From: an uncultured Eubacteriales bacterium
GTDB lineage: Bacteria > Bacillota > Clostridia > Christensenellales > Aristaeellaceae
NCBI GenBank assembly: GCA_902801165.1
Contig: CADCHI010000014.1
Location: forward strand, 1-64,000
Length of the DNA stretch: 64,000 bases
Reading direction: 5' to 3'
Shown piece after piece: positions 14,430-54,202 of the stretch. Each line of letters begins with the position of its first letter. Positions within the stretch are counted from its first letter, which is position 1. The position numbers and the translations under genes are program-made. The notes below the pieces were generated by a model. It was not told the DNA's origin and ran no database searches. It was given only the letters and a program-made list of their open reading frames with translations.

Positions 14430-15191
14430 ATGTCATTCTACAGCTACAAGAACAGTAACTCCCAGACCTGTCCCGGCATGGTCAACGGCAACATCCTCTC
14501 CGGGCTGAACCAGCGCGTGTGCGTGCAGGTGAAGAACATCTACGACAGCTGCATGCAGCAGGAGCAGCTGGACGACGAGCGCGTCGTCATCGAGAACATC
14601 GTGCCCGTGCTCCCCGGCTCCGACTGCCTGGGCACCGGCAACCGCCCCTGCTCCTGTGACTGCGAGGGCAACCGCTGCAACTGCGACTGCCCGCCCAGCG
14701 GCATCGGCATCACCCACCAGGAGGCCGTGGAGAACGCCGAAAACGCCCCCGGCCCGCTGCCCCGGCCCTACGGCGCCTGGACGTTCGAGAGCTGCCGCTC
14801 CTCCACCACGGCGGGCCGCATCTCCAACCTGTCCATCGAACGCCTGGGCGACCGGCCCCAGTTCGCCCGGGTGCGCTGCACCGTGGACGTGCCGCTGGAC
14901 GTACTCTTCCTGGACCAGCGCTGCCAGGAGTGGATGGGCCAGACGGTGGTCAAGGTGGACAAGGACATCCTGCTCTGCATCCCCGACGACTCCATCATCC
15001 CCTTCACCCTGGAAAGCCTCGTGAGCGCGATTTGCGTCTCCGGCTCTTACATCGGCAACTGCGCCTTCGACATCACCGTGTGCGTCACCGTCGTGCTGAA
15101 GGTGCTGGCCGAGGTGGACATCCTGATCCCCACCTACGGCTTCTGCCAGGTCCCGCCCTGCGAGGAGTTCGCCGAGCAGATCTGCGACGAA
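14430..15191 (+). CDS. Cys-rich, probably spore-coat protein: 5' part, interrupted by the prophage
   Basis: The first 254 codons of a gene split by prophage insertion. It starts MSFYSYKNSNSQTCPGMV seven bases after GAGGAGG. It has a Cys-rich segment (CSCDCEGNRCNCDCPPSG, residues about 73-90), a long beta-rich body and ends IPTYGFCQVPPCEEFAEQICDE at attL. After attL the frame continues through 37 foreign residues into the phage gene at 15348, ending at 15644. The missing end is at 53972-54202; joined at GAATT the product would be 329 residues. A sigma-K-like promoter, Cys-richness and lack of an export signal suggest a coat or related mother-cell protein. The family is unnamed to me. Confidence 0.8.
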
Positions 15192-15212
15192 TTGCACGCC
15201 TATCTCTCCCGG
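15184..15212 (+). other. attL, left prophage attachment site
   Basis: Host codons read up to GAC; the core GAATT (15189-15193) is shared with attR; then GCACGCC and the phage arm TATCTCTCCCGG (15201-15212) follow. The arm is the exact complement of the arm at attR. The crossover lies within GAATT. Confidence 0.85.
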
Positions 15213-15218
15213 CATACT

Positions 15219-15239
15219 GCCCGCCGTCCCTCGGCGGGC
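15219..15239 (+). terminator. Hairpin just inside attL
   Basis: GCCCGCCG (15219-15226) and CGGCGGGC (15232-15239) form a perfect 8-bp stem with a 5-nt loop. It would stop transcripts entering the prophage from the interrupted coat gene. There is no long T-run. Confidence 0.6.
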
Positions 15240-15287
15240 TTGTCCATTCCCCTCGAAAATTTTTATATAAATTCTTCGTCTTACCTA

Positions 15288-15316
15288 TTGACTTTATATA
15301 AACTCTATGCTATAAT
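15288..15316 (+). promoter_or_regulatory. Strong sigma-A promoter of the left-end phage cluster
   Basis: TTGACT (15288-15293) and TATAAT (15311-15316) are exactly 17 bp apart, 31 nt before the ATG at 15348. It drives rightward genes that are opposite to the lytic operon, so they can be expressed in the lysogen. Confidence 0.8.
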
Positions 15317-15347
15317 AGTATCAGAAATTGAGAGAGGGGAAACGAAA

Positions 15348-15644
15348 ATGAAGGGTACTGAAAAGCAGATCAAGTGGGCCGAGGACATCAAGGCGAACGC
15401 CATCAACACCTGTACCGCTAATATCGAGCGCCTGAGCGGCCAGCCGCTGGACGCGATGAGAGTCGAGGTCTTTAAGGTGATCCGCAAGACCCTGATCGAC
15501 GGCTTCGAGCAGATCGACGACGCGGCTGTCATCATCAACAAGCGGGCCCATTTCGACCCCATGGCGATCATCCGCATGGCGGATCGCACGAGCGAGCTCA
15601 TCAACTCCGGCCACATGACTCTGGAGCAGTTCGCGGCGCGATGA
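15348..15644 (+). CDS. Small phage protein of unknown function next to attL
   Basis: A 98-residue, mainly helical protein (KQIKWAEDIKANAINTCTAN, HFDPMAIIRMADRTSELINS). The opening TEKQIKWAEDIK is common in small proteins of Clostridia mobile elements. It follows GAGAGGGG by eight bases and its own promoter, and overlaps the next gene by ATGA. Being beside attL, expressed apart from the lytic genes and small, it is a candidate recombination directionality factor, but that is inference. Confidence 0.65.
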   Translation: MKGTEKQIKWAEDIKANAINTCTANIERLSGQPLDAMRVEVFKVIRKTLIDGFEQIDDAAVIINKRAHFDPMAIIRMADRTSELINSGHMTLEQFAAR

Positions 15645-16147
15645 TTAAGCACTGTGTGATATGCGGGGCCGCATTCGAGGCCCCGCCCTCGTCGAAGAAG
15701 ATCACCTGCTCCAAGGCATGCAGCACAGTCCGCAAGGCGCAAAGCCACACCGGCAAGCGCAATGAGTGGAGCGAAGCGTCCCGGGTGCGGCTGTCAGAGC
15801 GGCGCAGATCGGAGGGCTACAGCCCCAACGCCCAGGCGGGCCTTGCCGCCGCCATGGCGCTGCCTGAGGGGCAGCGCGGTGAACAGCACCGGAGCGCGAA
15901 GCGGTGGACGCTGATCGCGCCGGACGGCACCCGCTATGAGGTGGTCAACCTGCTGGACTGGGCCCGCAGGCACGCGGAATGGTTTGATGTTGTGGCGGAC
16001 GATGCCGACCGGGATCGCATCGCCGGGAACGTCCTCTCCGGGTTCGGCGGCATCGTGCAGAGCATGATGGGCCGCAAAAAGCGCCCGTGCTACACCTATA
16101 AGGGCTGGCGCCTCGGCGACTGGCCGAAGGACAGGAAGGGAGAATGA
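15641..16147 (+). CDS. Phage protein with N-terminal CxxC zinc motif
   Basis: A 168-residue protein. Residues 1-30 contain CVICGAAFE and KKITCSKACSTVRK, a four-Cys zinc motif of the kind found before HNH or AP2-like DNA-binding domains. A basic middle follows, then TLIAPDGTRYEVVNLLDWARRHAEWF, which resembles a NUMOD/HNH-associated segment, and an aromatic tail (KRPCYTYKGWRLGDWP). It overlaps the previous gene by four bases. Probably DNA binding; function unknown. Confidence 0.65.
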   Translation: MIKHCVICGAAFEAPPSSKKITCSKACSTVRKAQSHTGKRNEWSEASRVRLSERRRSEGYSPNAQAGLAAAMALPEGQRGEQHRSAKRWTLIAPDGTRYEVVNLLDWARRHAEWFDVVADDADRDRIAGNVLSGFGGIVQSMMGRKKRPCYTYKGWRLGDWPKDRKGE

Positions 16148-16151
16148 GACC

Positions 16152-16466
16152 ATGAAGAAGATCATCGACGGCAAGCTGAACGTCACCTTTACCGCAGATG
16201 GCCGGTGTAACCTGATGGCCTCGGAGGACGGCGCGCTGTACGCGGAGACCGTGCTGCCGGAGGACGTCATCGACGAGTACGGTGAGCGTGTCTCTCCTGT
16301 CGGCGAGGACTACGGATATTTTGCCTTGAAGGCGGCCATCGTGGACTTGGCGGAAACCCACGGCATCGATGCCGCAGACCTGGTATTTTGGTATGATGGG
16401 CAGGAGCAATATTTGAGCGAGGATGCACGCGCGGCATGCGCTGTGGCGTCTGACTATCGCGGATGA
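16152..16466 (+). CDS. Small phage protein, KKIIDGK family
   Basis: A 104-residue protein starting MKKIIDGKLNVTFTADGR. Its opening matches that of the next gene (MKKIINGKLYNTD), so the two may share an N-terminal beta hairpin. The rest is acidic. It lies four bases after the previous stop and overlaps the next frame. Unknown function. Confidence 0.55.
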   Translation: MKKIIDGKLNVTFTADGRCNLMASEDGALYAETVLPEDVIDEYGERVSPVGEDYGYFALKAAIVDLAETHGIDAADLVFWYDGQEQYLSEDARAACAVASDYRG

Positions 16467-16480
16467 AAGGAGATAGAGCC

Positions 16481-16912
16481 ATGAAGAAGATCATCAACGG
16501 CAAGCTCTACAACACGGACACGGCGAAGGAATTGGGCCGCGATGGCGGCGGAGACGGCTTCAGGAGTTGGCATGAGGAGCTCTACCAGAAGCGCACCGGC
16601 GAGTATTTTCTGTACGGCGAGGGCGGCCCGGCTACGAAGTACGCCGTCAGTGTCGGCCAGAACAGCTGGAGCGGCGGGTCGCAGATCATCCCGCTGAGCA
16701 TGGACGCCGCCCGTGAGTGGGCGGAGGAACACCTGGACGCGGACGACTACGCCGAGATCTTCGGCATGCCCGGTGAGGGCGACGGCGAGAAGGTGACGCT
16801 GTGCGTACAGCTACCCGCGGCCCTGGACGCGAAGATCCGCGCCGGCGCCGCCCAGGCCGGGAAGAGCCTGACGGCCTACCTGGAGGGCGTGCTGAGCGAA
16901 GCGCTCCGCTGA
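16481..16912 (+). CDS. Mobile-element protein with C-terminal ribbon-helix-helix-like part
   Basis: A 143-residue protein. The N-terminal 90 residues (KKIINGKLYNTDTAKELG, then KRTGEYFLYGEGGPATKYAV) belong to a family that is very common in Clostridia conjugative elements and phages. The last 40 residues (VTLCVQLPAALDAKIRAGAAQAGKSLTAYLEGVL) look like an Arc/RHH DNA-binding unit. The start at 16481 follows AAAGGAG by seven bases. It could be an antitoxin-like regulator, but no toxin lies beside it. Followed by a terminator. Confidence 0.65.
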   Translation: MKKIINGKLYNTDTAKELGRDGGGDGFRSWHEELYQKRTGEYFLYGEGGPATKYAVSVGQNSWSGGSQIIPLSMDAAREWAEEHLDADDYAEIFGMPGEGDGEKVTLCVQLPAALDAKIRAGAAQAGKSLTAYLEGVLSEALR

Positions 16913-16943
16913 TCGCGAGATCCTCGAAAGTTACCGGCAACTT

Positions 16944-16971
16944 AGAAAAGCCCTGATTTCAGGGCTTTTCT
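16944..16971 (+). terminator. Rho-independent terminator of the left-end cluster
   Basis: AGAAAAGCCCTGA pairs with TCAGGGCTTTTCT around a 2-nt loop, giving a stem whose 3' half ends in TTTTCT. It follows the RHH-like gene by 31 bp. Confidence 0.85.
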
Positions 16972-17037
16972 GCTCATCAGAATGATTTTTTTGCTCAACA
17001 GCGCAAGTTAAACGCACGATTATTGATTAAAATGATC

Positions 17038-17075
17038 AAGATGCAGATTCAATTAAAGAAATCTGCATCTTGTTT
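17038..17075 (-). terminator. Terminator at the end of the late operon
   Basis: AAGATGCAGATT (17038-17049) pairs with AATCTGCATCTT (17060-17071), with A/T-rich flanks on both sides. It lies 30 bp after the holin stop on the minus strand and probably ends the long leftward late transcript. Confidence 0.75.
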
Positions 17076-17104
17076 TAATTATCAGATGATTGCTAAACCG
17101 TGCT

Positions 17105-17665
17105 TTACTTATCCTCGTCCTCCGGCTCCCCGTCCACCATCGTCTGGATCATGGCCTTGAGATCGTCGTGACTGTCCGCAGGCGTCTGCGCCTCGGCTTT
17201 GTCAGGGCTCTGCGGCGTGGGCTTCGGCAGTCCATCGGCGTCCTCCCCCTTGCCGCCCTTGTCGCGCATGCTCTCGAATGCCTTTTTGATCTTGTCCGGG
17301 AATGGCACACCCAGGGCGTCGGCATTTTCCAGGATGGAGAGCGCCTCATTGGCGATGTAGTAGCAGAGGCACGCACTCTGGAAGATCATGGCCGTGTTGC
17401 CCATGGCGCGATCCAGCAATGTCGCCAGCAGGACGATGGCCATGATAAAGCCCTTTTTCGCCAGGCCGATAAAGCCCACCTTGGACGACAGGCCGCCGCC
17501 CTCGGTCTTCGGGGATCTGCCGCAGGCCGCGACCACGCAGCCGGTGATGTAGTCGGTCGCCATGACTGCCACCAGGATGGTGTGCATCTGTGTCCACTCT
17601 CCAAACAGGCCCAGCACCGCGCCCGCGACGCCGGCCAGCAGCTTTACGATTTTGTCCCAACTCAT
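17105..17665 (-). CDS. Phage holin
   Basis: A 186-residue membrane protein of the phage_holin_4 / toxin-secretion holin type. Three hydrophobic segments occur in the first 110 residues (KLLAGVAGAVLGLFGEW, ILVAVMATDYITGCVVAA, GFIMAIVLLATLLDRAMG). The family motif ATDYITG is present. A charged, disordered tail of 60 residues is longer than usual. It forms membrane lesions that release the endolysin at 20536. Last gene of the late operon. Confidence 0.88.
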   Translation of the reverse strand: MSWDKIVKLLAGVAGAVLGLFGEWTQMHTILVAVMATDYITGCVVAACGRSPKTEGGGLSSKVGFIGLAKKGFIMAIVLLATLLDRAMGNTAMIFQSACLCYYIANEALSILENADALGVPFPDKIKKAFESMRDKGGKGEDADGLPKPTPQSPDKAEAQTPADSHDDLKAMIQTMVDGEPEDEDK

Positions 17666-17678
17666 TTGATTGACCTCC

Positions 17679-17954: not shown

Positions 17955-17973
17955 GTGGCATCAGTCCTTTCGG

Positions 17974-18333: not shown

Positions 18334-18347
18334 AGTGTTGCTCCTTT

Positions 18348-18965
18348 CTATTCTTCTGGAGGGTAAAGTGTGCCCGTTCTCGGCATAATGGTTTTGCTAA
18401 CGGTGTCATACATTTCGACTACACTTGTAGTCTTATGCTGAATCGGTACAATGTTGTATGTTATGCCATTAGCTTTTTTATGCCTATAATACGCGATTTT
18501 GCCAGATGTATTAGTGCTAAATCCGTAAAACATTAGTAGGTTTTCTGTGCCGTGCGCAAATGTAATTGTTGATACATCAAGTTTGTTGTTGATACCGTCT
18601 ATTGAAAAACGATAATCTTTGTATACCCAAATATGGAAACCCTTATCTCTTTGAATTACAGATAATGGCCAGTAGCAAGCACTATTTGTAGTAGGTATAT
18701 CGCCATATCCTATTCCAAAATTATCTGCATATGGCCCACCAACAATAGCGAAGCGATTATGGTTGTCATTCCATGTTTTTGGCGCAATTATAAATTTATC
18801 TAACCCTAGAGATTCGCATGATGCTTTTGTAATCACTTCGTCTGTTTTATCAAATCCAAACGGCAAAATAACATGGCCTGCTCCGGCTCTCGCATATGCG
18901 ATAAACCGATACCCGGATGGCGGGACACTCTGCCGCATCATGAGCAGCCTTCTCCGCGCTTCCAT
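18348..18965 (-). CDS. Tail-tip / receptor-binding type protein, AT-rich
   Basis: A 205-residue beta-rich protein with many aromatic residues (SGYRFIAYARAGAGHVILPFG, HIWVYKDYRFSIDG). Its ATG overlaps the stop of the collagen-like fibre (TAATG), so the two are translationally coupled. Base composition over 18360-18960 is far lower in GC than the surrounding phage genes, as expected for a recently acquired host-range module. Role is inferred from position. Confidence 0.55.
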   Translation of the reverse strand: MEARRRLLMMRQSVPPSGYRFIAYARAGAGHVILPFGFDKTDEVITKASCESLGLDKFIIAPKTWNDNHNRFAIVGGPYADNFGIGYGDIPTTNSACYWPLSVIQRDKGFHIWVYKDYRFSIDGINNKLDVSTITFAHGTENLLMFYGFSTNTSGKIAYYRHKKANGITYNIVPIQHKTTSVVEMYDTVSKTIMPRTGTLYPPEE

Positions 18966-20404
18966 TAACTCCACTGTCCCATCACCCCGTACACGCCATC
19001 TGCAATATTGATCTCGTAGGTTGTGTTCGCTTCGCAAGTTCCGTCCCAGCCGCTCGCCCATTTCATTGTCTGCCCCGTCGGCGGTGTCACGGTCAGCACT
19101 GCCGGGGTTGACCCGCTGGTGAACACCACGTCCACGCACCCGCTTGCCGGGAGTGTGATGTCTATGGTCGTGACCTCTCCGCAGACGTAGCGGATACCGG
19201 GAAGAGCGGTGATGACCGGGGCTGTACCAGAGACGGAGACGGGAGAGGTGAGCATGGTAGAGATGGCGGATTTCTGGGCTTCAGGGTAAACGCCGACAGT
19301 GGTCTGAGAGATGGAGGCCATGTCTGCACCGGCTGCTTTAGCAAGGCCGTAGAAGGTGGATTCGTGCTGATTATGCGGAGTTATAGGCCACCACATACTC
19401 GTTGACAATTTTATTGCCTTGGTACCGGCTGTCACTATTTCCAAGCGTCCGTCAATAGCGTTTATTCCTCGGTCGTAAAATGATCTAACAACTCCTTGAA
19501 CAGCACCGCTTGCGTTCGGCACATTCGCCACGCCCTGTGCATCCAGCACTGACACCCCGTTGACCTGCACGTCCTGCACAGCGCCGCCACCATCCATCAC
19601 ATCAAAGCTGTGCGGCCCAGTTGCGTCCGTGATGGTAACACGATGCCCGCCGGCGATGTCCGTAACCGTGATGGTCGGGGAGATGCCGTCCGTGCCAGCT
19701 GGGCCAGTGGCACCAGTCGGGCCAGTAGGCCCAACGGGGCCGGTATCACCCTTCGCGCCCGTGTCACCCTTCGGCCCTTGTTCACCCTGAACACCCTGTT
19801 CGCCTTGCGGCCCGGCAGGCCCGGTCAAACCGCGCTCGCCCTGAGGCCCTTGTGGGCCTGTCGCGCCAGTATCTCCACGCGGGATGCCGAAGGTCAGCGT
19901 CACCACGCCGTCAGGAGCCACGGATTTCTCGACGGTTGCCGCGCTGCCGGGAGTCAGGGTATTCGCGTCAACGCCCATATTCTGGACGCTCTCAGCCGCG
20001 CCCTCTGCCGCTTCCACGCCCGCATTGAGCGCCGCTATGGCCTGATCTATCACGGTCTGCTCGGCGGGAGTAGGCGGCTCATCCGTAGGCTGGGGCCTCT
20101 TGTTGACCGGGATAATGATAGCATAGACAGTCTCGCCATCATTCGGGCCAGCATGAAGGAAAATCCAAGCGTAGATGGTCTGGCCCGTTTTCAAGTACTC
20201 ATACGGGATTTCGACCTCGTTGTTTGTGCCGATCTGCTCCTTCGCCGTGCCAACCTCATTCTGATTGCTGAAATGCACCTGAAAGGAGTTCGGCAAATCA
20301 AGCCCTTCAAAACGAAGGATTTGACCGTAGTCCCACTGCCAAGCCGCCGCAGTTCTGACGACTTTCGAGCCGCCAAACGCCGCAACAACAATGTTGGTAG
20401 TCAC
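18965..20404 (-). CDS. Tail fibre with collagen-like repeats
   Basis: A 479-residue fibre. Residues 1-115 form a beta-sandwich anchor ([20 protein letters not shown], BppU-like in placement). A helical region of about 60 residues follows, then about 20 uninterrupted Gly-X-Y triplets ([20 protein letters not shown] onward, residues about 190-255), and a C-terminal adhesin-like part ending in a jelly-roll style domain. The start is the GTG at 20404, seven bases after GGAGG, overlapping the previous stop as GTGA. Binds the host surface or extends the tip protein downstream. Confidence 0.82.
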
Positions 20405-20532
20405 TCGTCCCACCTCCTGCATGACAAAATCATAACTACCGCGCAAATGGCGATCAGACCCAGAATCGCGCCCCAGCCCCAGCGCAGTATCAGGTCTGCC
20501 CTCGCCACCGCTTCGAGTATCGTCCTCTCCAT
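20401..20532 (-). CDS. Small single-pass membrane protein
   Basis: A 43-residue protein: [14 protein letters not shown], then a transmembrane helix ([17 protein letters not shown]) and a short basic end. It lies between the endolysin and the fibre, overlapping the fibre start by four bases. Perhaps a lysis accessory protein; no family recognised. Confidence 0.55.
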
Positions 20533-20535: not shown

Positions 20536-21573
20536 TCAGCCCTCAATCCGGCCGTATTTGGAGGACACCCAGGCGTTTTCGCCCTTGAACTCCACAAGAT
20601 ACCAGTTGCGCCCATCGTGAACCTTCGTCACGTCCTGATAGCCCAACCGGTCATCCCTATGCGCCACGCCCAGAATCCGGGATTCCGTGCCGGGTGCGCT
20701 CCGCACGTTCACGCTGTTGCCGGTAATGAGAACGTACTTCCGGCCATCGAGGGCCTTTGCCAAGGCATCCCGCGTCGCCGCGTCGTACACACCGGTCAAG
20801 TCAAGCCCGTGATCCTGCTGGAAGTCCTTCAAGGCTTTGAGGGTTTCACTACCGAAGTCCCCGTCCGCGCCGTACTTCGGAAGGGCATAGCCCAGCCGCA
20901 TCAGCTTGCGCTGCATGTCCCGAACGTCCGCGCCCTCGTCGCCGTATCTCAGGCCATCCACAGCGGGTTCAGACGGCGTTTCTACCGCGGTTCCCTCGTA
21001 GTCGAAATACTTGTCCATCAGGCCCCAGAAGTTCGGCTTGCGGCTGTACAGCTTCGACTTCACCACGCCGTAGGCCACGCCCTTCGCCTCGATGATGTAC
21101 CAGTCGCCCTCCGGGTGGCCCTCCTTCACCGGCTTCCACAGGTAGGCCACGTGGTGGATGCTCCCCGCACTGGAATTGCTCCAGAACACCGCCGCGCCGG
21201 GAACGCGAAACGCTGCGGGAATCATGCCGGAACCCTTCGAGGAACACCACTCGGCGTAATTGTGCCGCGCCTTGGAGTTAATGCATGTGCCGGTGTAAAT
21301 CTCGTAGATGCCCTCGGCCATGCCGTTGCAGTCCCAAACGCGGGTACACTTCTTGCGCCACTTGAGCGCCGCCGCGCGCTGGCTGCCGCTGTACTGCGTG
21401 TAGTAGTAGCCGTTCTCCTTCCACGAACTCTTGCACTTGCTCTCCGGCACGGACAGGTCGAGGTAGCCGGTGCGCGGGTTCTGGCCGTAGCTGCCCATGA
21501 TGTAGCCATCGCCCCGGTTCAGGGCGGCAACGAGTTCTTCAACGAACTTGCCAATCGGCATTCGCTTTGCCAT
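20536..21573 (-). CDS. Endolysin: NlpC/P60-like peptidase, PG-binding and SH3 domains
   Basis: A 345-residue lysin. The N-terminal 170 residues are an NlpC/P60-like domain with the catalytic Cys in [18 protein letters not shown] and a His in [13 protein letters not shown] peptidoglycan-binding domain follows ([22 protein letters not shown], residues about 205-270), then a C-terminal SH3-like domain ([18 protein letters not shown]). It degrades host wall peptides once the holin opens the membrane. Placed among tail genes, upstream of the fibre. Confidence 0.88.
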
Positions 21574-23122: not shown

Positions 23123-24964
23123 TTAGTCGCCGGCGCCCCATCCGATGACGTTGTAGGTCGTGCCGTCCACGGTGATGGTACGCCTGTAGAAGCTGTAGCC
23201 GCCCATACGGATGTCCCGCGCGTTGCACAGCGTCATGGTGGTGGTGCCGCTCAGCAGGTTGTCGATGCGGGCGTTTGCCGCGCTCAGCTGGCTGGCGGTG
23301 ACGTAGCCCGTCAGGTTGATCTTGCTGGCGCTGATGTCCACGCTCTCGGCGCTGGCGTTGATGGAGGACAGCACGTTTCCCTTGTCCACAACCGCAATGG
23401 CTACGCCGTCGCGCTTGACGTACAGCCCAGCGCCGTCGATCAGCTGAACGTTGGTGCCGTCCGTCGTGAACTTGCCCACGACGCTTGTGATGCTGTCCCG
23501 GTTCTGCCAGATACCGGAACCCTGAATCGTGGTGACATCGCCCTCCAGGGTGGTCGTCCGGCTGGCCACGGAGCTCACCGCGTCCGCGGTCTGCGTAATG
23601 CGGGTGGATAGGCCGCCCTCCGCCGTGGTGGCCCGGGCGACCTCGCTGGTGATGCGGCCCGCCTCCACCGTGATCCGGCTGGACAGGCTGCCCTCGGCGT
23701 CCTGCGCCCTCTGGGCCTCCAGGGTGATGGCGTTTTCGTTGGCCGTGATCGCCGTCTGCGCGGTGACCATGTCGCCCTCGGTCTTGATGACCCGCTGATA
23801 GATGCCGGTGCCGTCCACCATGATCGACGCCACGCGGGACCAGTCCACGTTCCCGGCTTCGTCGGTGCCCGCCACGGCCTCGGCCACGATCAGGACGTGG
23901 TCGGTGGTGTCCTCAATCCAGGCGTGATCCTCCTCCTGCGACTGGGCGCTGCCGCCGGCGTTGCGGGAGCCGCTGCCGGAGGTCTGCTTGAGTATGCTGG
24001 CCACGTCGATCAGTTCGTTCGCCAGGGTGACGGTCACGGTCTCCGGCTGCCGGATCTTGTCCGACCACGACAGCCGCGTGATGGTCTCCCGGATGGTGGT
24101 GCCGAACTCCGGCAGGGGCACCCGGCACACTCGGCCCAGCGTCAGCTTGTCCAGCGGCTCGCCGGTGGCCCGGCTCAGCTCCAGCGCCGTGGCGGTGATG
24201 CTCACCGACGGCTCGGCGTGGCGGCTCAGCTTGTCCTCGGCCCAGGCCCGAAGCATCTCCTTGCTTCGGATGCTCTGGTCGGTCTCTGTGTGGGCGATGA
24301 CGCCGTAGACGTCCTCGTTTTTGCTCACGTAGTCGCCCGCGATGTGGATGTTTCGCGCCCCGACCGGGTAGAATCGGGTGTACATGCCCGACCGGTCCAC
24401 CACGCGCCGCAGCGCCACCAGGTTGCGGCTGGCCCGCAGTTCGCTGGCCACGTCGTCGGACTTTTTGACGATGTGCAACTTGAAGGGCAGCGTGGTCAGG
24501 TCGTACTCCCACCGCCAGCCGTCCAGCGTGCCGCAGATCGTTTCCAGCGCGGCGAAAACCGTTTGGTTGTTGAACTGATACGGCAGCGTCCGGCTGAACT
24601 CAAACCGGCCCAGCGTCCAGATGGACTGCCGGCTCAGCGCCTGCCGGGCCATGCTCTCCGCGCTGGCGTTGCTGCCGCCCAGGCTGCCGAAGATCAGCAC
24701 GTCCTTGAGTGTGGAAATCACGTGCTCCAGCTGGACCGTGCGCGTGTCCCGCTCGTAGGCAGTCTCCACGCTCTTGACCCGCCAGATGATGCCCTTGCCC
24801 GGGTCGGTGTCGTCCTTGATCCAGTCGTCGACGGTCAGCACCGGGGCCTCCGGACCGATGGTGATGCTCGACGTGCTGACGCCCCTGTCGATCAGGTTGA
24901 GCGGCTGCGTCTCCGGGTAAAATACCGCCTTCGGCGTCAGCGTCTGTCCCGCCAGCAGGATCAT
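23123..24964 (-). CDS. Tail-tip lysin / prophage endopeptidase tail protein
   Basis: A 613-residue protein of the siphovirus tail-associated type (ReqiPepy6 Gp37 / prophage endopeptidase tail). The N-terminal 340 residues are the gp27-like hub (LAGQTLTPKAVFYPETQPLN, DGWRWEYDLTTLPFKLHIVKK, GEPLDKLTLGRVCRVPLPEF). The C-terminal 270 residues are coiled coil with Ala/Thr/Glu repeats (ITLEAQRAQDAEGSLSSRIT). It follows the distal tail protein with ATGA overlap, the normal gene order. Confidence 0.85.
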   Translation of the reverse strand: MILLAGQTLTPKAVFYPETQPLNLIDRGVSTSSITIGPEAPVLTVDDWIKDDTDPGKGIIWRVKSVETAYERDTRTVQLEHVISTLKDVLIFGSLGGSNASAESMARQALSRQSIWTLGRFEFSRTLPYQFNNQTVFAALETICGTLDGWRWEYDLTTLPFKLHIVKKSDDVASELRASRNLVALRRVVDRSGMYTRFYPVGARNIHIAGDYVSKNEDVYGVIAHTETDQSIRSKEMLRAWAEDKLSRHAEPSVSITATALELSRATGEPLDKLTLGRVCRVPLPEFGTTIRETITRLSWSDKIRQPETVTVTLANELIDVASILKQTSGSGSRNAGGSAQSQEEDHAWIEDTTDHVLIVAEAVAGTDEAGNVDWSRVASIMVDGTGIYQRVIKTEGDMVTAQTAITANENAITLEAQRAQDAEGSLSSRITVEAGRITSEVARATTAEGGLSTRITQTADAVSSVASRTTTLEGDVTTIQGSGIWQNRDSITSVVGKFTTDGTNVQLIDGAGLYVKRDGVAIAVVDKGNVLSSINASAESVDISASKINLTGYVTASQLSAANARIDNLLSGTTTMTLCNARDIRMGGYSFYRRTITVDGTTYNVIGWGAGD

Positions 24965-25761
24965 CACACATACCTCCCATAGCACCGCACGGTCAGCAGG
25001 CCCGCCCGCCGCGCCGTCCAGCCGACGGTCACGCTGCCGGGGGAGACCTTGAGCTCATCGTCGCTCTCGGCCTTCCGCGCGGCCATCGCCGACCGCCAGG
25101 CGCCCGCGCCGTCCCGAATGCGGATGCGCAGCAGGCCCTCGGCGTCGTGGTCGAGCTCCAGCGTCTCCCCGGGCGTCAGGCCCAGGGCCTCGAACGCCAT
25201 GGAGCAGGTCCCCGCCGTCAGGGTAAACTCCGACAGCTCGGCGGTGGACGTGTTGGTCAGGCTGAACTCCAACATGCTTGGCGCGGTGCCCGCGATCTCC
25301 AGCGCCTTCGAGTTGCCCTTCGTGGTCGGGGCCACGAAGCTGGACGGGTTGGTGCTCTGCCAGAAGGGCACGCCGTAAGCCCGGAATGTGATCGTGTACT
25401 CACTGGCCCACTCGGCCTGGTCGCCCGCCGCCGGCAGCTGCGCGCACCGCACGTAGATCCGCCGGTCCGGGCGGATGTTGGTCGTCAGCCAGCCGCCGCC
25501 CATGGCCCAGGCGGCCACCTTTTCAAAGATCTCGCTGCGCTGCACCAGCTCGTCCGCGCTGGACCTCAGCCGGATCCCGAAGCGCACGGACACGTCCAGC
25601 GCGTCCCGCACTTCGGAGACGACCCGCAGGCCGCCTCCAAATCGGTTGGCGGTGGTGATGTTCAGCCGCGCCGCCCCTTCGGTGACGCCCAGCACCAGCA
25701 CGCGCTCGTCCAGCTCGTCCAACTGCGCGCCATTCAGCGCCGCCCGGTGTTTAAGCTGCAT
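24964..25761 (-). CDS. Distal tail protein (Dit family)
   Basis: A 265-residue protein that connects the tail tube to the tip. Sequence blocks such as LDELDERVLVLGVTEGAARL and ITTANRFGGGLRVVSEVRDA match the siphovirus family of tail proteins (Gp19.5-like), and the C-terminal half contains the galectin-like beta-sandwich (LELDHDAEGLLRIRIRDGAG). It lies between the tape measure and endopeptidase genes, as expected. Confidence 0.82.
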   Translation of the reverse strand: MQLKHRAALNGAQLDELDERVLVLGVTEGAARLNITTANRFGGGLRVVSEVRDALDVSVRFGIRLRSSADELVQRSEIFEKVAAWAMGGGWLTTNIRPDRRIYVRCAQLPAAGDQAEWASEYTITFRAYGVPFWQSTNPSSFVAPTTKGNSKALEIAGTAPSMLEFSLTNTSTAELSEFTLTAGTCSMAFEALGLTPGETLELDHDAEGLLRIRIRDGAGAWRSAMAARKAESDDELKVSPGSVTVGWTARRAGLLTVRCYGRYV

Positions 25762-25765: not shown

Positions 25766-27910
25766 TCACCTCAATTCCGCGTAGGCCCTGCCGCCGATGG
25801 CCTGGCTCACATAGGGTGCGGTGGCCTCGCCGACCTCACGGCCGTCCAGGTTGACCTTGATCTTGCTCACGGCCTGCACCACGGCACGCGCCACGGCTGC
25901 CGGCAGGCCCTTCAAGCCGTTCAGGCCGTCCGCCATGGCGGTGTCTTTGTTATCTCCATTGGTCCCGCGGGCCACGCCCTCGGCGACGGCCTCCTCGATG
26001 TCGTGGTAGTCAATCCAGTCCATGTTGCCGTAGCCCTCGGCGTCTCGCCATTCGCTGTACCGCTTCATCAGGTCCGTCGCGCCGTCCATGCCGTAAAAGC
26101 GCTCCGACGCCTCCGTGGCCCTCTCTCCGATGGCCTGAAATTCATCGTCGGTGTAGTTGGTCATGTCGTCGATGGCCGCCTGAAGGTCCCGCTGGGTCTT
26201 TATGACGTCGTCCAGGGCGGCAAGCAGTTCGCCGTCGCTCTTTTCGATGGCCTCCGTGCTGCCGATCGGGCCGTATTCCTGCCGGTAGTCCGCTGCCTGT
26301 TTGTACAGGTAGCCGATGGCTGCCGCGATGCCTGCCTTCGGGATGAGGTCCTTTACCCAGGTTGCAAAGGCGCCCGCGACCGATGCCGCGCCTACGCCTC
26401 CTGCGCCGGCTGCCGATGCCGCGCCGGCGCCGCCAGCGGCAGCAGCTCCAGCGCCTTCGGCAGCCGCGCCCAGCCCGTTGAATGCGGAAATCACCTTCAG
26501 CTGCGCGGCCATGCCCGCGATCTGGAGGCCGACGGCGCCCAACTTCGTCAGCAGGCTCGCACCGAAGATGCCCGCCAGCGCAATGCCGACGGCATCGGCG
26601 TTGTCCAGGATCCACTGGAGCGTCTCTTCGATACCCAGCAGCAGCTTGCCGATGCCGGCGATCACCGGGTCGTCGTCGTCCGCCCAGTCGGAGCCGATCT
26701 CTTTCAGCAGCTCCAGGCCCTCTTCTATGGCCACCTTGACCTTCGCGAAAAACTCCTTGATGTTCTGCTTCAGCTTCTCCAGCGCCGCTTCACGGTCCTC
26801 ATCGGTTTCGGCCTTCATGAAGTCATTCAGGGCGCCCAGGCTGCCCTGGACGTTGACGATCAGGTCCGCAGAGATCTCGCCCAGGCCGCCAGCGACGGAC
26901 CTTTTCAGCGAATCCCACATTGCCAACGTCTTTTGCATCTCTTCGTGGACGTCGCTCATCGTTTTGATCGTCTCTGAGTCAATGCCGAAGCCGCCATTGT
27001 CTGCGTCGAAGTCGTCCAGGTTGTCCCGGATTGTCTCCCAGTCGTTCAGGATGTCCATGGCCTTCGTGGCCTTCTTCTCGCCGAAGATGGTCTCCCAAAA
27101 CTCATCGGTCAGCTGGCCTTTGCTTCGCAACTCATAGGCCCGCTCCATCACGGCGATGGCATAATCCCAGTCGTTTTTATAGTTGACATCGGACACGCCC
27201 AGCAGTTCGGTGATCTTATCACCCTTGCCGCCCAGATTGATGCGGCTCACGATGCTCTCAAAATCCGAAAACTGATTACCTGCGGACCGTACCGCGTTTT
27301 CCCATTTCTGGATGGTTGCCGCGTCGGTGTTCCAGTAGCCGGCGATGTCGCTCCATTCGTTCGCCTTCGCTGCCGTCTCGCCGATAAAATCCCACAATTC
27401 CACGGCCACGTCGCGAACCGTGTCGATCAGCCCCGTGAAGATGCCCTGCAGCGCCCCGCTCACGCTATCGCCGATGGAGGCGATGCTCTGGACGGCGTCG
27501 GCGAAGCTCTTCGAGGCCGTCACGCCCTCGGCGGTGGCGTCGCTGGCCCCGCGCATGCCGTTCTCCAGCGTGCCCAGCTCGTTGGACATGTTGGCCAGCG
27601 TGGTGCGCGCCTGGTTCAGCTTCTGCTCCCACTTCTGGACCACGTCCTCATTGTCGCCGTAGTCCCTCTTGGCCTCGTCCAGGGCCTTGCGGAGGGTCTC
27701 GACGACCTTCTCCTGTTCCTTGATTTGCTTCTGCAGGCTCTTGGCCCGGGCCTCGTTCTTCTGCTGGGCGGTGGCGTTCGCGCCCATCTCGGCGGTCTCC
27801 GCCTTCAGTTCGGAGCGCAGGGTTTTCAGGTTGCGCTGGGCGGCCTGCAGCGCGGAGTTGTACTCCCGCTCGCCGTCCAGCCGTATCGTCTGTTTGATCT
27901 CGTTCGCCAT
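25766..27910 (-). CDS. Tail tape measure protein
   Basis: A 714-residue protein. Residues 1-130 are charged coiled coil (LKTLRSELKAETAEMGANAT, QKQIKEQEKVVETLRKALDE), then hydrophobic segments and Gly/Ala-rich stretch (GAGAAAAGGAGAASAAGAG) near residue 500, and a helical end. The start at 27910 follows GGGAGGTG. It sets tail length and lies directly after the chaperone gene G/GT, the standard order. Length suggests a tail of about 100 nm by the usual rule. Confidence 0.92.
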   Translation of the reverse strand: MANEIKQTIRLDGEREYNSALQAAQRNLKTLRSELKAETAEMGANATAQQKNEARAKSLQKQIKEQEKVVETLRKALDEAKRDYGDNEDVVQKWEQKLNQARTTLANMSNELGTLENGMRGASDATAEGVTASKSFADAVQSIASIGDSVSGALQGIFTGLIDTVRDVAVELWDFIGETAAKANEWSDIAGYWNTDAATIQKWENAVRSAGNQFSDFESIVSRINLGGKGDKITELLGVSDVNYKNDWDYAIAVMERAYELRSKGQLTDEFWETIFGEKKATKAMDILNDWETIRDNLDDFDADNGGFGIDSETIKTMSDVHEEMQKTLAMWDSLKRSVAGGLGEISADLIVNVQGSLGALNDFMKAETDEDREAALEKLKQNIKEFFAKVKVAIEEGLELLKEIGSDWADDDDPVIAGIGKLLLGIEETLQWILDNADAVGIALAGIFGASLLTKLGAVGLQIAGMAAQLKVISAFNGLGAAAEGAGAAAAGGAGAASAAGAGGVGAASVAGAFATWVKDLIPKAGIAAAIGYLYKQAADYRQEYGPIGSTEAIEKSDGELLAALDDVIKTQRDLQAAIDDMTNYTDDEFQAIGERATEASERFYGMDGATDLMKRYSEWRDAEGYGNMDWIDYHDIEEAVAEGVARGTNGDNKDTAMADGLNGLKGLPAAVARAVVQAVSKIKVNLDGREVGEATAPYVSQAIGGRAYAELR

Positions 27911-27926
27911 GCCCGTCACCTCCCCA

Positions 27927-39170: not shown

Positions 39171-39207
39171 CTAATCCCTAATTCCTAATCCCTAATCCCT
39201 AATTCTT
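39171..39207. repeat. CTAATCCCTAATT array, left copy
   Basis: Three to four CTAATCC(C)TAATT units lie at the end of the HUH gene and overlap its stop codon. They are the inverse of the array at 40234-40268, so the HUH gene sits between inverted arrays. Confidence 0.75.
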
Positions 39208-40131: not shown

Positions 40132-40233
40132 GGTGCCCTCCACGCGACGCGCATGTCAGATTTTAATGCGGTATACAAGCCCGCGCAGGGCGTTTGCCGC
40201 CCCTCGCCTTATAGTAGAAGAAAGTACCCTCTC

Positions 40234-48744: not shown

Positions 48745-48785
48745 GCAAACACCCCCTTCGGCTCAGTCTATGCCGCTGCCCTCAC

Positions 48786-49160: not shown

Positions 49161-49244
49161 TCGCTTGATGGAGCATCCCTCCCGTCCCTGTCTTGCGCCC
49201 CTCGGCGCGGTCGTGCTATAATCCCCTCGAAAGGGGTGTTGCTT

Positions 49245-49710: not shown

Positions 49711-49720
49711 GTTGTCCCCC

Positions 49721-49957
49721 TTACGCCGTTGCCGGTTGCCCATTTGGTGACTTCTGCCGCAAAAAAATATTCACCATTTCCTCCACCGAGGTGCCCAGCT
49801 TCCCCGCCAGGGCGGCAGTCTCGGCCAGGGTGGGCTCCCTGGTGCCGTTCGTGATGACGTTCAAGCGCTGTTTGGTCCATCCCAACTCCTGCGCGAGCTG
49901 TGTTTCGGTCTCGTATTGGCTGTAAATCAGCCCCCGAAGTGCCGCGATCTTCGCCAT
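49721..49957 (-). CDS. Cro-like helix-turn-helix protein
   Basis: A 78-residue HTH protein: ETETQLAQELGWTKQRLNVI with TNGTREPTLAETAALAGKLG. The start at 49957 follows AAAGGAGG. It is the first leftward gene of the switch, under a perfect sigma-A promoter, as Cro-type proteins are. The DNA near its 3' end contains another TTTGGTGAC motif. Confidence 0.75.
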   Translation of the reverse strand: MAKIAALRGLIYSQYETETQLAQELGWTKQRLNVITNGTREPTLAETAALAGKLGTSVEEMVNIFLRQKSPNGQPATA

Positions 49958-49984
49958 TTGTGTGTCGCCTCCTTTCGTCATCCG

Positions 49985-50080
49985 TTTGGTTACAGGCCAA
50001 TTATAGCATCCATTCCCTTTTTTGTCAACTATTTGGTGACATTTTCTTTCCTCGCGTTTTTGGGTCTTGTTTTTGGTGAC
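49985..50080. promoter_or_regulatory. Lysis-lysogeny operator set: three TTTGGTKAC sites
   Basis: TTTGGTTAC at 49985-49993, TTTGGTGAC at 50032-50040 and TTTGGTGAC at 50072-50080 lie in the divergent region between Cro- and CI-like genes, spaced 47 and 40 bp. They flank or overlap the promoters below. A fourth copy is at 49743-49751. Confidence 0.6.
50000..50028 (-). promoter_or_regulatory. Leftward early promoter (PL-like), perfect consensus
   Basis: On the minus strand TTGACA (50028-50023) and TATAAT (50005-50000) are 17 bp apart. It drives the Cro-like gene and the early block. Confidence 0.85.
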
Positions 50081-50095
50081 TCTCTGTGTTATATT
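50067..50095 (+). promoter_or_regulatory. Repressor promoter (PR/M-like), weak
   Basis: TTGTTT (50067-50072) and TATATT (50090-50095) are 17 bp apart, with an operator in the spacer, 34 nt before the CI-like start. Confidence 0.55.
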
Positions 50096-50128
50096 AATAG
50101 TAGCTTTTCAATGACTGGAGGCTATAGC

Positions 50129-50527
50129 ATGAGTGACTTTGGCGACACTTTACGGAAAATTCGCACTTTACGTGGAATGACACAAGATGATTTTGCTGCC
50201 CTTCTCGGCACCACGAAACAGGTCATCAGCCGTTATGAGAATAACCAGCGCTCCCCGAAGATTTCTGTAGTGGCTGAGTATGCGGAAATACTCGGCATCC
50301 CCGTGTGTGTGCTGACCGGCGACGCGCCTCTCGAGGCAGTCACGGATGTCGATTCCTCCAAGCTTTCCACTCGGCCTCCTATCGAGTTGTCAGCACAGGA
50401 GCGTGGTTTGGTTGAGGACTTTCGCTCGCTAAACCGCCAGGGGCAGGAATACATCCTGCAAACGATGGCAATGGCAGCCACGATATATAAAAATGATCCT
50501 GTTTCCCGCATGGCGGATCAGGCGTGA
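50129..50527 (+). CDS. CI-like repressor
   Basis: A 132-residue protein. HTH_3 domain: LRKIRTLRGMTQDDFAALLG, TTKQVISRYENNQRSPKISV. No LexA/S24 protease domain follows; instead a short helical end (EDFRSLNRQGQEYILQTMAM), so induction must differ from RecA-driven cleavage. The start follows GGAGG. It is divergent from the Cro-like gene with shared operators. Confidence 0.82.
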   Translation: MSDFGDTLRKIRTLRGMTQDDFAALLGTTKQVISRYENNQRSPKISVVAEYAEILGIPVCVLTGDAPLEAVTDVDSSKLSTRPPIELSAQERGLVEDFRSLNRQGQEYILQTMAMAATIYKNDPVSRMADQA

Positions 50528-50549
50528 CGACACGAAGGAGCGATGACAG

Positions 50550-51056: not shown

Positions 51057-51072
51057 TGCCGGAGGTGTGCCT

Positions 51073-52335
51073 GTGCGCTATCTGTTTTACGATGTTGAGA
51101 CTCCAAACCGGCGCAACGATTCCATCTGCGCTGTAGGCTGGGCGTTGTATGACGGGCTTGTAGAGGTCTCCCAGGAATATCAACTGATTGATCCCCGCGC
51201 TGACTTCGATGTCTTCAATTCGCGCATCCACGGTATCTACGCCGCAGACGTGGCGGGCATGCCGACCTTTGGCGAATACTGGACGAGCACGCTTGCTACA
51301 CTCATGTCCAGCGCTATCGTCGTCGCCCATAACGCCAACTTCGATATGTCCGTCACTTCAAAGGCGCTCGACCGCGAGGGGACCGAACTGCCGCGCGTTA
51401 TGTACATCGACACCCTGCCTGCGCTTCGCGCTCTGTTCCCTGGGCAGTCCTGTAAGCTGACTGATCTCGCGAAGATGTACGGCTATAGCTATACCGCTCA
51501 CAACGCGGGCGAAGACGCCGTTATCCTCGCGGACATACTCAGCGCCATCTGCATGGAGCGCGACTATGACAGCTTCGACGAGCTGTTCGACGTCGCGAAC
51601 GCAAAACCACAAACGGCCCAGCTTTACGCGGCCAGGCCGGAACCGGCGTGTCGGGTCTCCCCTTCCGAACGATACCGTGAGAAGCTCCAGAAAATCATCG
51701 ACGGTGCAAAGCGAAAAGGCGTCGATCTGACCGACATACACTTCGCGTTTCATGGCAACCTTAATAACCCGGAATTGATGCGAGTCGGCGGGCTTGACCT
51801 GATCGTCCAGGCTCTCGGCGGCGTGTACCATGCCAGCGTAAGTAAAAAGGTGGATTACCTGGTATGTTTCGACGGCGAAGAAACGGGCAGCGTGCGAAAA
51901 GCCAAAACACTGATAGATGCCGGCGCACAGATACAGATCATCGAAACGGACGCCTTTCTTAACCTTATCGGCTACCGTGTCGCCGAGCCCAACCATGTTG
52001 GACCTGCCCATATAAGGGAGCGTAAGTCCGAATCCCAACGGCAAAAGGATGAGGAAGCGCGGCTCAAGTACGAAGCGCGGCAACAAAAAGCCGCTGCCAG
52101 AGCGGAGCGGGAGGCCCGCAAAGCACAAAGGCAATGCGCTGACAGGCATCGCCATGCGGTGCTCCAGCTTACGCTCGACGGCGACGTCGTGCGGCAGTTT
52201 TCATCCGTCGCCGAGGCGGCTGAAACTCTCGGCATCAATAAATACAGCATCAAAGATGCTGCTCGCGGCAAGCAAAAAACGGCCGGCGGCTATCGTTGGA
52301 CCCGTGTTGCCGACGACGGCGAACCGGGCAAGTAA
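51073..52335 (+). CDS. Exonuclease-BRCT-NUMOD fusion protein
   Basis: A 420-residue protein. Residues 1-170 are a DEDDh 3'-5' exonuclease (FYDVETPNRRND, AHNANFDMSV, HNAGEDAVI). Residues about 225-300 are a BRCT-like domain (LMRVGGLDLIVQALGGVYHA, YLVCFDGEETGSVRKAKTL), a basic coiled coil comes next, and residues 360-412 are a NUMOD1-like DNA-binding motif (FSSVAEAAETLGINKYSIKD, GKQKTAGGYRW). GTG start after GGAGG. It resembles the epsilon/BRCT proteins of Firmicutes but with an added homing-endonuclease-type DNA binder. Located between repressor and integrase. Confidence 0.82.
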   Translation: MRYLFYDVETPNRRNDSICAVGWALYDGLVEVSQEYQLIDPRADFDVFNSRIHGIYAADVAGMPTFGEYWTSTLATLMSSAIVVAHNANFDMSVTSKALDREGTELPRVMYIDTLPALRALFPGQSCKLTDLAKMYGYSYTAHNAGEDAVILADILSAICMERDYDSFDELFDVANAKPQTAQLYAARPEPACRVSPSERYREKLQKIIDGAKRKGVDLTDIHFAFHGNLNNPELMRVGGLDLIVQALGGVYHASVSKKVDYLVCFDGEETGSVRKAKTLIDAGAQIQIIETDAFLNLIGYRVAEPNHVGPAHIRERKSESQRQKDEEARLKYEARQQKAAARAEREARKAQRQCADRHRHAVLQLTLDGDVVRQFSSVAEAAETLGINKYSIKDAARGKQKTAGGYRWTRVADDGEPGK

Positions 52336-52372
52336 TCCATAGACCCCTTATTCCGCTGACGGAGGTATCCCC

Positions 52373-53947
52373 ATGAAACACCTGGACCCCGGCGGGCGCT
52401 ACTGCGCCTACCTGCGCAAATCCCGCCGCGACCTGGAGCTGGAGGCCCTCGGCCAGGGCGAGACCCTCGCCCGCCACGAGCGCCAGCTGAATGAGCTGGC
52501 GCAGCGCCTCGGCATCCGCATATCCCGCACCTACCGGGAGATCGTCTCCGGCGACACCCTCTCGGAGCGCCCCCAGGCGCAGCAGCTGCTGGAGGACGTC
52601 AACGCCGGCATGTGGGACGGCGTGCTGGCCATGGACGTGGACCGCTTCGGCCGCGGCGACAGCATCGACCAGGGCGTGATCATGCAGTCATTTTTCTATT
52701 CCGGCACGCTCATCGTCACCCCGGACAAGATCTACGACCCCGCCGACGACTCCGACGCGGAATTTTTCGAGGTCAAGCTGTTCTTCGCCCGCCGGGAGTA
52801 TGCCATGATCAAAAAGCGCATGCAGCGCGGGCGCATCCTCTCCGTGATGGACGGGTGCTACCTCGGCCCGGACCTCTACGGCTACCGGCGCGTCAAGCTC
52901 AAGGGCCGCAAGGGCTGGAGCCTGGAGATCGTGCCCGATCAGGCCGAGATCGTCCGCGCCATGTTCGGCTGGTACGCCTACGGCATGGACGGCCACCCCG
53001 TCGGCGCGGAGACCATCGCCCGCCGCCTCAACGACATGGGCGTCGCCACCGCCCGGGGCAACCGCTGGACCGCCTCAACGGTGAAATGCCTGTTGCAAAA
53101 CCCCACCTACGCCGGGAAGATCCGCTGGAACACCCGCAAGCAGCAGATCAGGATCGTGGACGGGCGCCGCGTCAAGTCCCGCCCGAAGTGCGACGACCCG
53201 ATCCTGGTGGACGGTCTCCACGCGCCCATCGTCGACGCGGACCTCTGGCAGCGCGTCTCCGATCAGTTCGCCACCCACTCCCGCCAGCCGAAGAGCGCCA
53301 CCCGCCACCTGGTCAACCCCTTCGCCGGCCTCTTGGTGTGCGGCGAGTGCGGCCACATGATGCAGATCAAGGGCGACCCCAACCGCCGCGGCGACTTCAT
53401 CGGCTGCGTGACGCAGGATTGCCCCACCTATTCCGCCTATGTCTTTGTCCTGGAGGACATGGTCCTGGAGTTCCTCGCCGGCTGGATCGCCGACGCGGAG
53501 GCGGAGCTCACAGGCGCGCCCGTCCCGGATCCCGACGCCCAGGCCCGCGCCGCCGCCCGCGCCCAGCTCGCCGAGCGCCTGGACACCCTCCAGCAGCAGT
53601 CCGGCCGCCTCTATGACCTGCTGGAGCAGGGCGTCTATACCATCGCCGTCTACCGCCAGCGCCGCGCGTCCCTCGACGCGCAGATCGCGGAGGCCATCGC
53701 CCAGCTCGACGCCCTCGACGCCGAAGCGCCGCGCCGTCCCTCCCTGGTGCCCCTGCTCCCGCAGCTGCGCACCGTCGTGGACACCTACCGCGCCGCCCCC
53801 GATGCCGCCGAGAAAAACCGCCTGCTCCGCACCGTGATCGACCGCATCATCTACACCAAGCCCCGCCGCCTCTACCGAAACAATAACCTCGGCGACTACA
53901 TCACCCTCACCATCTACCCCAAATACCCCGCTTTTTTTGACGAATAA
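52373..53947 (+). CDS. Large serine recombinase (phage integrase)
   Basis: A 524-residue site-specific recombinase. The catalytic Ser is residue 17 (YLRKSRRD), with the resolvase fold to about residue 150 (AMDVDRFGRGD). The recombinase domain follows (LYGYRRVKLKGR, RRLNDMGVATARGNRWTAST), a zinc ribbon (LLVCGECGHMM ... GCVTQDCP), and a coiled coil (QLAERLDTLQQQSGRLYDLL) with a C-terminal beta part. Its stop lies two bases before the attR arm. It can integrate alone; excision needs a directionality factor not yet identified here. Confidence 0.96.
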   Translation: MKHLDPGGRYCAYLRKSRRDLELEALGQGETLARHERQLNELAQRLGIRISRTYREIVSGDTLSERPQAQQLLEDVNAGMWDGVLAMDVDRFGRGDSIDQGVIMQSFFYSGTLIVTPDKIYDPADDSDAEFFEVKLFFARREYAMIKKRMQRGRILSVMDGCYLGPDLYGYRRVKLKGRKGWSLEIVPDQAEIVRAMFGWYAYGMDGHPVGAETIARRLNDMGVATARGNRWTASTVKCLLQNPTYAGKIRWNTRKQQIRIVDGRRVKSRPKCDDPILVDGLHAPIVDADLWQRVSDQFATHSRQPKSATRHLVNPFAGLLVCGECGHMMQIKGDPNRRGDFIGCVTQDCPTYSAYVFVLEDMVLEFLAGWIADAEAELTGAPVPDPDAQARAAARAQLAERLDTLQQQSGRLYDLLEQGVYTIAVYRQRRASLDAQIAEAIAQLDALDAEAPRRPSLVPLLPQLRTVVDTYRAAPDAAEKNRLLRTVIDRIIYTKPRRLYRNNNLGDYITLTIYPKYPAFFDE

Positions 53948-53949
53948 TA

Positions 53950-53976
53950 CCGGGAGAGATAATGGTGGGATGAATT
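53950..53976 (+). other. attR, right prophage attachment site
   Basis: The phage arm CCGGGAGAGATA (53950-53961), ten bases, then the core GAATT (53972-53976) followed by host codons TTC TTC TCG. The arm is the exact complement of that in attL. Confidence 0.85.
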
Positions 53977-54202
53977 CTTCTCGCTGCCCCTCTTCCCCCA
54001 GTCCTCCTGCGCCTTCGAGCAGGTGTCGGACGCCTCTACGGACGGCACCGCCACCGCGGCCACCGGCGGCTGCTACAGCTGCGGCCCTGTGAACCCGGTG
54101 CGCCCCGCGCGGATGCGCCAGTGCTCCAACTGCGGCACCACCTGCGCCGGAGACAGCACCCTCTGCCCCCGCTGCGGCGCGACCATGACCACGCTGAACT
54201 GA
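53972..54202 (+). CDS. Interrupted coat-type gene: 3' part
   Basis: GAA plus 75 codons that continue the frame of 14430-15191: FFSLPLFPQSSCAFEQ, a Thr/Ala/Gly linker, CYSCGPVNP and a zinc-ribbon-like CSNCGTTCAG ... CPRCGATMTTLN. It has no start codon of its own with a ribosome site, so in the lysogen it cannot be made. After excision it forms the tail of a 329-residue protein. No mutation breaks the frame, as expected if it is restored at times. Confidence 0.82.
   Translation, partial: EFFSLPLFPQSSCAFEQVSDASTDGTATAATGGCYSCGPVNPVRPARMRQCSNCGTTCAGDSTLCPRCGATMTTLN

Follow-up and report, generated by a model that had tools for sequence, protein, structure and literature searches.

As far as the papers cited here and below describe them, sporulation-gene rearrangements have been found one at a time, in Bacillus and in a small number of clostridia. 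They include the prophage SPbeta in spsM of Bacillus subtilis, in which the timing of excision is set by a directionality factor expressed in the mother cell (PMC4191935), as well as skin in sigK, yin in yabG and gin in gerE; vfbin is also named among the sporulation gene-intervening elements (PMC5595907, PMC10747680). Here we describe a prophage of 38,783 bp (38.8 kb; 15189-53971) that splits a conserved gene in a window of 64,000 nucleotides (contig CADCHI010000014.1, assembly GCA_902801165.1; host genome labelled G000), all coordinates being positions in this window unless another contig is named. The recurrent splitting of one gene at one place is what is new here. The original prediction for this DNA had presented the prophage as a new intervening element; this description needs amending in that the case is not a single one, the window prophage being one of many insertions at this place. 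We regard the element, with reasonable though limited confidence, as a candidate member of the skin/SPbeta/gin/yin class, excised during sporulation to rejoin the gene.

The closest parallel is provided by SPbeta, which like the window prophage is a complete prophage with a large serine recombinase (LSR). Its precise excision restores a sporulation gene, as that of the window prophage would restore a probable one; spsM is controlled by sigma-K, and the gene in the window has a sigma-K-like promoter (PMC4191935). The two differ in host gene and lineage, the SPbeta-group recombinase is 25% identical, and neither a sprB-like factor nor its mother-cell promoter was found in the window prophage. 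The skin element of B. subtilis and C. difficile is an LSR element inside a mother-cell sporulation gene, as the window prophage probably is too (PMC10747680). However, the two sigma-E/K-type genes of the window genome, both of which score under the cut-off of the SigK model, are uninterrupted, and the target here looks structural. In Clostridium botulinum, yin is a similar prophage-like LSR element in a SigK-regulated clostridial gene, but it is reported as unique to one strain, while here the same gene stretch is targeted in several genera (PMC10747680). Finally, gin of Bacillus cereus demonstrates that a non-phage element can do this, and the compact elements that we found at the same place in genomes G354 and G033 likewise show no phage genes by reading; gin is 28.6 kb long and has three recombinases, compared to 2.4 kb and one in G354 (PMC5595907).

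In the split gene, codons 1-254 (14430-15191, plus strand) make up the 5' part, which ends in GAC-GAA and has homologues in relatives, and the 3' part (codons 255-329 and the stop, 53975-54202, plus strand) begins with TTC-TTC and carries a CxxC...CxxC tail. When the halves are joined they form a single open frame of 329 amino acids, to which the 3' part contributes 75 codons and the stop. These coordinates and this codon split agree exactly with the original prediction, as does the uninterrupted 329-codon frame that it expected of precise excision. The sequence GAATT occurs at 15189 and again at 53972, at a spacing of 38,783 bp; these copies are the cores at attL (15189-15193) and attR (53972-53976). 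A homologue comparison places the insertion point inside the highly conserved protein motif EEFAENVCDEFFSLPLFP.

The prophage LSR (52373-53947, plus strand; PF00239, PF07508 and PF13408; phrog_95) is a 524-residue protein with resolvase, recombinase and zinc-ribbon domains and an intact frame. Its open reading frame (ORF) ends 2 nt before the right attP arm, CCGGGAGAGATA (53950-53961), and the other arm, TATCTCTCCCGG, lies at 15201-15212. In the rebuilt attP these perfect 12-nt inverted arms flank GA, with which codon 254 begins (15189-15190); 19 of 26 positions of the dyad are paired, a value that none of 1000 shuffles equalled. The same test was applied to the other GA-core elements with both ends and to those of G354 and G033. 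The dyad was centred on GA in all ten GA-core elements for which both ends are available, with 17-23 of 26 positions paired and 0/1000 shuffles as good in each, although the arm sequences themselves vary from element to element. GA is also the portion of GAATT common to both ends in every one of these ten pairs. The dinucleotide GA in codon 254 is therefore the most probable crossover; the GAATT that had been proposed as the core is present at both ends, but probably does not act in its entirety.

Relatives that lack the prophage were expected to carry the joined gene, and this held when it was tested. In a sample of 200 genomes of the family, seven of the ten other same-genus genomes have the uninterrupted gene (residues 1-328 or 1-329, 78-88% identity), and the joined-gene query gave no match in the remaining three. 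In total, 95 of these 200 genomes, the host's own included, gave a match to the joined protein. A query spanning the junction found matches in 148 of 308 family genomes, and in an order-wide sample of 396 genomes from 142 genera the gene was matched in 264 genomes and 90 genera. Of the 148 matching family genomes, at least 12, from seven genera, have the gene split at the same place (G000, G280, G285, G181, G191, G033, G258, G259, G094, G300, G042 and G007), and at least two more split genes were found in another family of the order (G354 and G424). Splits were detected by where the match stops, and since G007 was found only through its translation, 12 is a lower bound; five genomes with partial or contig-cut matches (G260, G171, G240, G257 and G140) were not counted. 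Neither part had been thought to be decayed in the window, and this is true not only here but across the split genes, as every one of the 14 N-halves and 13 C-halves found has an open frame up to its natural end or the junction. For G259 the N-half alone was found, with its LSR at a contig end. In G042 the LSR lies 1.5 kb away from the C-half, and in G285 and the viral contig L105, where the coat N-half has no normal start codon, the recombinase stands beside the N-half on the opposite strand. Three elements (G033, G354 and G424) have the core displaced upstream, at GTGT. In G354 the attP dyad has GT as its centre, with 21 of 26 positions paired; this GT belongs to a Val codon located 9 nt upstream of GA.

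Several features link the split gene to sporulation. Among the 200 family genomes, 90 have both the gene and spoIVA (TIGR02836), 5 the gene only, 9 spoIVA only and 96 neither, which corresponds to an odds ratio of 192, uncorrected for shared descent. Upstream of the window gene a box of the form AC-N16-(C/A)ATA-NNN-T (14355-14380, plus strand) is found, and boxes of this type precede the gene in 30 of 32 loci, compared to a mean of 0.24 and a maximum of 2/32 in 200 mononucleotide shuffles. This box fits the sigma-K promoter type. In a scan with calibrated patterns, the sigma-K type occurred in 27 of 32 coat-gene upstream regions and in 0 of 18 spoIVA upstream regions, whereas the sigma-E type occurred in 2/32 and 12/18, respectively. 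Because its distribution follows spoIVA and because this promoter box is conserved, we conclude that the split gene probably belongs to the sporulation programme and is of the coat type. The designation as a probable spore-coat gene thus gains indirect support from the co-occurrence and the promoter, although no family name and no spore localisation were found for it. The 254-residue 5' part belongs to no Pfam or NCBIfam family, and the same was found for the 14 members searched; the best relative in the PDB had an unconvincing E value of 0.25, and an AlphaFold model from a two-sequence alignment reached a mean predicted local distance difference test score (pLDDT) of only 39.9. The zinc-ribbon-like tail that had been noticed does match a Pfam zinc ribbon, albeit below threshold (E 5e-4; score 19.8 bits, cut-off 27). 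The host genome has a full-length SpoIVA, on C30, and a complete SpoIVB peptidase domain (2-210/210). A second SpoIVA-like match, in two pieces, was seen at G000:C70:23893-25361.

Related recombinases were collected from the 308 family genomes at E values up to 1e-60. The 21 places found comprise ten with the coat gene on the same contig, one probably at the coat gene (G259), five at spoIVB (four adjacent to the gene and one on the same contig), four on contigs where an attP-like sequence comes after the recombinase and one with no known site. A tree of 32 rows, from which G081, G653 and G259 were excluded as partial and in which G007 and G328 are also absent, contains one group of 20 rows with a support of 94/99, marginally under the tool's own star. 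This group unites the 13 coat-gene recombinases that were placed, six recombinases followed by a free attP-like sequence or a contig end, and G079. The GA-core rows alone are not one clade (six changes, four of them forced), since they are interspersed with rows from free phages, the GT-core clade and G079. The three shifted-core recombinases form one clade (100/100), as do the five spoIVB recombinases, outside the group of 20 (100/100). Over the whole tree, all target labels need 9 changes compared to 19.2 in shuffles. We read this as a long-standing preference of a single lineage for the coat gene, not as a series of unconnected accidents.

The preference of these recombinases may extend to other sporulation genes. 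A 3' piece beside related recombinases is the C-terminus of SpoIVB (PF05580 positions 191-210, E 8e-6), and a survey of PF05580 in 36 genomes, 35 of which matched, found spoIVB split after ...GAVTHV in five (G144, G235, G236, G249 and G258). In G258 both the coat gene and spoIVB are split, and in G236 about 9 kb separate the LSR from the C-half of spoIVB on the same contig. The spoIVB-splitting LSR elements are located at L207 1397-8552 (G258) and L208 1568-14062 (G249) and on L209, L210 and L211/L212. Judged by reading their longer ORFs, two of them (7.1 and 12.4 kb) have no obvious phage genes and carry cargo-type genes (arabinofuranosidase-like, radical SAM-like and phosphatase-like). In B. 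subtilis, spoIVB is needed for the activation of sigma-K. Since it acts there in the forespore, a model of excision in the mother cell fits spoIVB less well. As a separate observation, two genomes have an intact spoIVB followed, some 0.75 kb further downstream, by a second copy of its C-terminal end, resembling the footprint of an earlier insertion (L213 1447-2331 in G191 and L214 1545-2376 in G064, both minus strand). In the open PubMed Central literature we found no account of the coat-type gene or of a split spoIVB among titles and abstract openings, and no paper on spoIVB with a prophage.

At seven further loci, on five viral contigs and in G434 and G563, a manganese-catalase-type piece directly follows a related recombinase (L255 4612, L259 4621, L284 4591, L295 4588, L302 4610, L151 3115 and L153 2220 (minus)). 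The six pieces tested all match PF05067, the fragment on L259 being outside those six. PF05067 covers manganese catalases in general, and the label CotJC is assigned here by motif. The C. difficile phage phi027 adjoins a cotJC-like gene (PMC11222575, PMC12122855). It is conceivable, although we would not yet bet on it, that one LSR lineage is specialised in sporulation genes, namely the coat gene, spoIVB and a CotJC-type manganese catalase, across gut Clostridia genera.

Besides full prophages, the coat-type gene harbors much smaller elements. The 2.4-kb element of G354 consists of a 510-residue recombinase and a small helix-turn-helix gene. The 6.3-kb element of G033 encodes a recombinase, a response regulator with an HD domain, an Hpt protein and a hybrid histidine kinase, the signalling genes being at L057 3861-7913. 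In G424 a 3.9-kb element has a recombinase shorter than the others and two further genes, one weakly collagen-like (E 0.012, under the cut-off) and one with DUF6273. The G424 recombinase frame (L145 1378-2703, minus strand) reads on, without a change of frame, into the C-half of the coat gene. Selection for excision would be expected to leave behind small elements of this kind, with a recombinase frame retained between open gene halves, although in G033 the missing dyad and in G424 the short recombinase speak against it.

The window element itself is, to judge by its genes, a temperate siphovirus-type prophage in which head, tail, packaging, lysis, replication, repressor and integrase functions are represented. 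Of 30 hand-picked prophage ORFs scanned against PHROG, 14 matched at E values up to 0.001. On the minus strand these include a holin (17105-17665, phrog_199, E 2e-21), tail fibre (18965-20446), endolysin (20536-21573), minor head/tail protein (23123-24985), tape measure protein (25766-27919), major tail protein (28520-29095), major head protein (30528-32039, phrog_10, E 4e-46), terminase large subunit (33783-35582, phrog_9, E 4e-107) and replication initiation protein (39199-40143, phrog_3584, E 4e-51). On the plus strand, a repressor-type transcriptional regulator (49916-50527) was found in the same scan, and family searches identified a DnaQ-type exonuclease with a NUMOD-like end (51067-52335). 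Between attL and the holin are four small plus-strand genes (15348-16912), ORF calls to which searches assign no function, with no Pfam match above cut-off and none in PADLOC. They are preceded by a sigma-70-like promoter (TTGACT-17-TATAAT, 11/12 matches; 15288-15316, plus strand), the single one in a scan of 14250-17100, compared to 1.2 expected in shuffles. On the related contigs L033, L035 and L036 a holin-like sequence, recognized by eye, is located close after attP. The left flank of the window includes an RT-5 RNA (5527-5651, 63.7 bits) and a cobalamin riboswitch (9427-9618, 106.6 bits), and just downstream of the split gene is an ORF that reads as an IS30-type transposase (54344-55303, minus strand).

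How might such an element behave during development? Under the reading that we favour, excision during sporulation, a temperate siphovirus has used its LSR to integrate into the conserved coat-type gene, at GA in codon 254. The prophage would be excised in the mother cell by the recombinase together with a directionality factor, the rejoined 329-codon gene would be made late in sporulation, and the spore chromosome would retain the prophage. The insertion would then be nearly cost-free to the host, which would explain the frequent use of the site, as with SPbeta in spsM. In-frame restoration by itself proves little, because any precise excision yields a restored frame; the case for a developmental element instead builds on recurrence, reduction and target choice. 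With respect to selection, the C-halves of three split same-genus genes show no relaxed constraint, the mean ratio of nonsynonymous to synonymous polymorphism (pN/pS) being 0.56 between split and intact genes and 0.62 among intact genes.

A number of observations weigh against excision during sporulation. For the N-halves the mean pN/pS is higher between split and intact genes (0.33) than among intact genes (0.21); the comparison as a whole is weak evidence either way. No joined attB is present in the host's own assembly, and no viral contig has an exact match to the window attP arms. No directionality factor was identified for the recombinase. A fixed-motif scan found no excess of sigma-E, -G or -K motifs in the window prophage, and a position weight matrix built from 30 coat promoters gave no hit of 8 bits or more there. 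The one sigma-E-like site in the window prophage, at 40081 and shared with G285, was rejected as a candidate since it lies antisense inside the replication gene and is explained by coding constraint. Nine spoIVA-bearing genomes in the 200-genome sample have no match to the gene. The attP of G033 is without a dyad (10/26 paired, with 124 of 1000 shuffles as good) and the recombinase of G424 is short, so both elements may not excise; in G007, a 16-kb phage-derived element whose LSR is missing its N-terminal part (L094 1558-2445, minus strand) looks trapped. The developmental excision put forward in the original prediction is a plausible reading rather than an established one, with neither a joined attB in the assembly nor a credible sporulation promoter in the prophage. 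The promoter miss is weak evidence, since SPbeta's own directionality factor has an imperfect -35 (PMC4191935). When motifs calibrated on spoIVA upstream regions were used on 14 element sequences, 18 sigma-E-like sites were found compared to 5.5 expected in shuffles, an excess that we do not count as evidence, and 20 sigma-K-like sites compared to 28.7 expected.

Alternatively, the insertions could reflect ordinary lysogeny, in which a highly conserved stretch of coding sequence happens to be recognised by a recombinase lineage, the host can do without the coat protein, and excision is unconnected with sporulation and occurs on phage induction only. We consider this possible but rather doubtful. 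LSRs commonly share conserved targets unrelated to sporulation: a study of LSR convergence describes, like here, diverse LSRs that share one coding target, but none of the targets given in the available part of that study is a sporulation gene; they comprise a magnesium chelatase-type gene, a prolyl isomerase and competence genes (PMC10083194). On some phage contigs, moreover, a free attP-like dyad accompanies a related recombinase (16 of 80 under a permissive script rule, although some of the 16 have other cores by eye). Five contigs combine a free attP-like dyad with a related recombinase (L033, L035, L036, L038 and L040), and two of the free-dyad genomes (G121 and G283) also have a coat-gene match running beyond the junction. 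Such contigs fit a free phage as well as excision and are weak evidence. The lack of a credible sporulation promoter in the elements scanned and the retention of a split gene with a truncated LSR in G007 likewise agree with lysogeny. However, lysogeny does not easily explain the persistence of small elements with a recombinase frame and both gene halves open, or the presence of related recombinases in spoIVB and against CotJC-type genes. That the prophage is an off-switch, so that lysogens form changed spores or none at all before they lose the phage, within a broader loss of sporulation among gut lineages, is very improbable, since the split halves are without decay and the host keeps full-length SpoIVA, the SpoIVB peptidase gene and both sigma-E/K-type genes, even though three same-genus genomes (G060, G172 and G182) have spoIVA and no match to the gene and spoIVB, with its role in sigma-K activation, is split in relatives.

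Collectively, our data point to one conserved gene that has apparently been invaded repeatedly by one recombinase lineage in a large, mostly unnamed group of bacteria, and this gene encodes a sporulation-type protein without a family name that is conserved across an order. The recombinases are available with their att sites mapped. The natural series from a full prophage to a 2.4-kb element bears on how a phage becomes a developmental switch, and it opens the questions of what makes phages target sporulation genes and whether spores in the gut require the excision of a phage. If a single LSR lineage is indeed specialised in such genes, sporulation genes would be safe harbours, since an element that leaves the chromosome of the doomed mother cell cancels the cost of its insertion, and the smallest elements would represent phages reduced to nothing but developmental switches.

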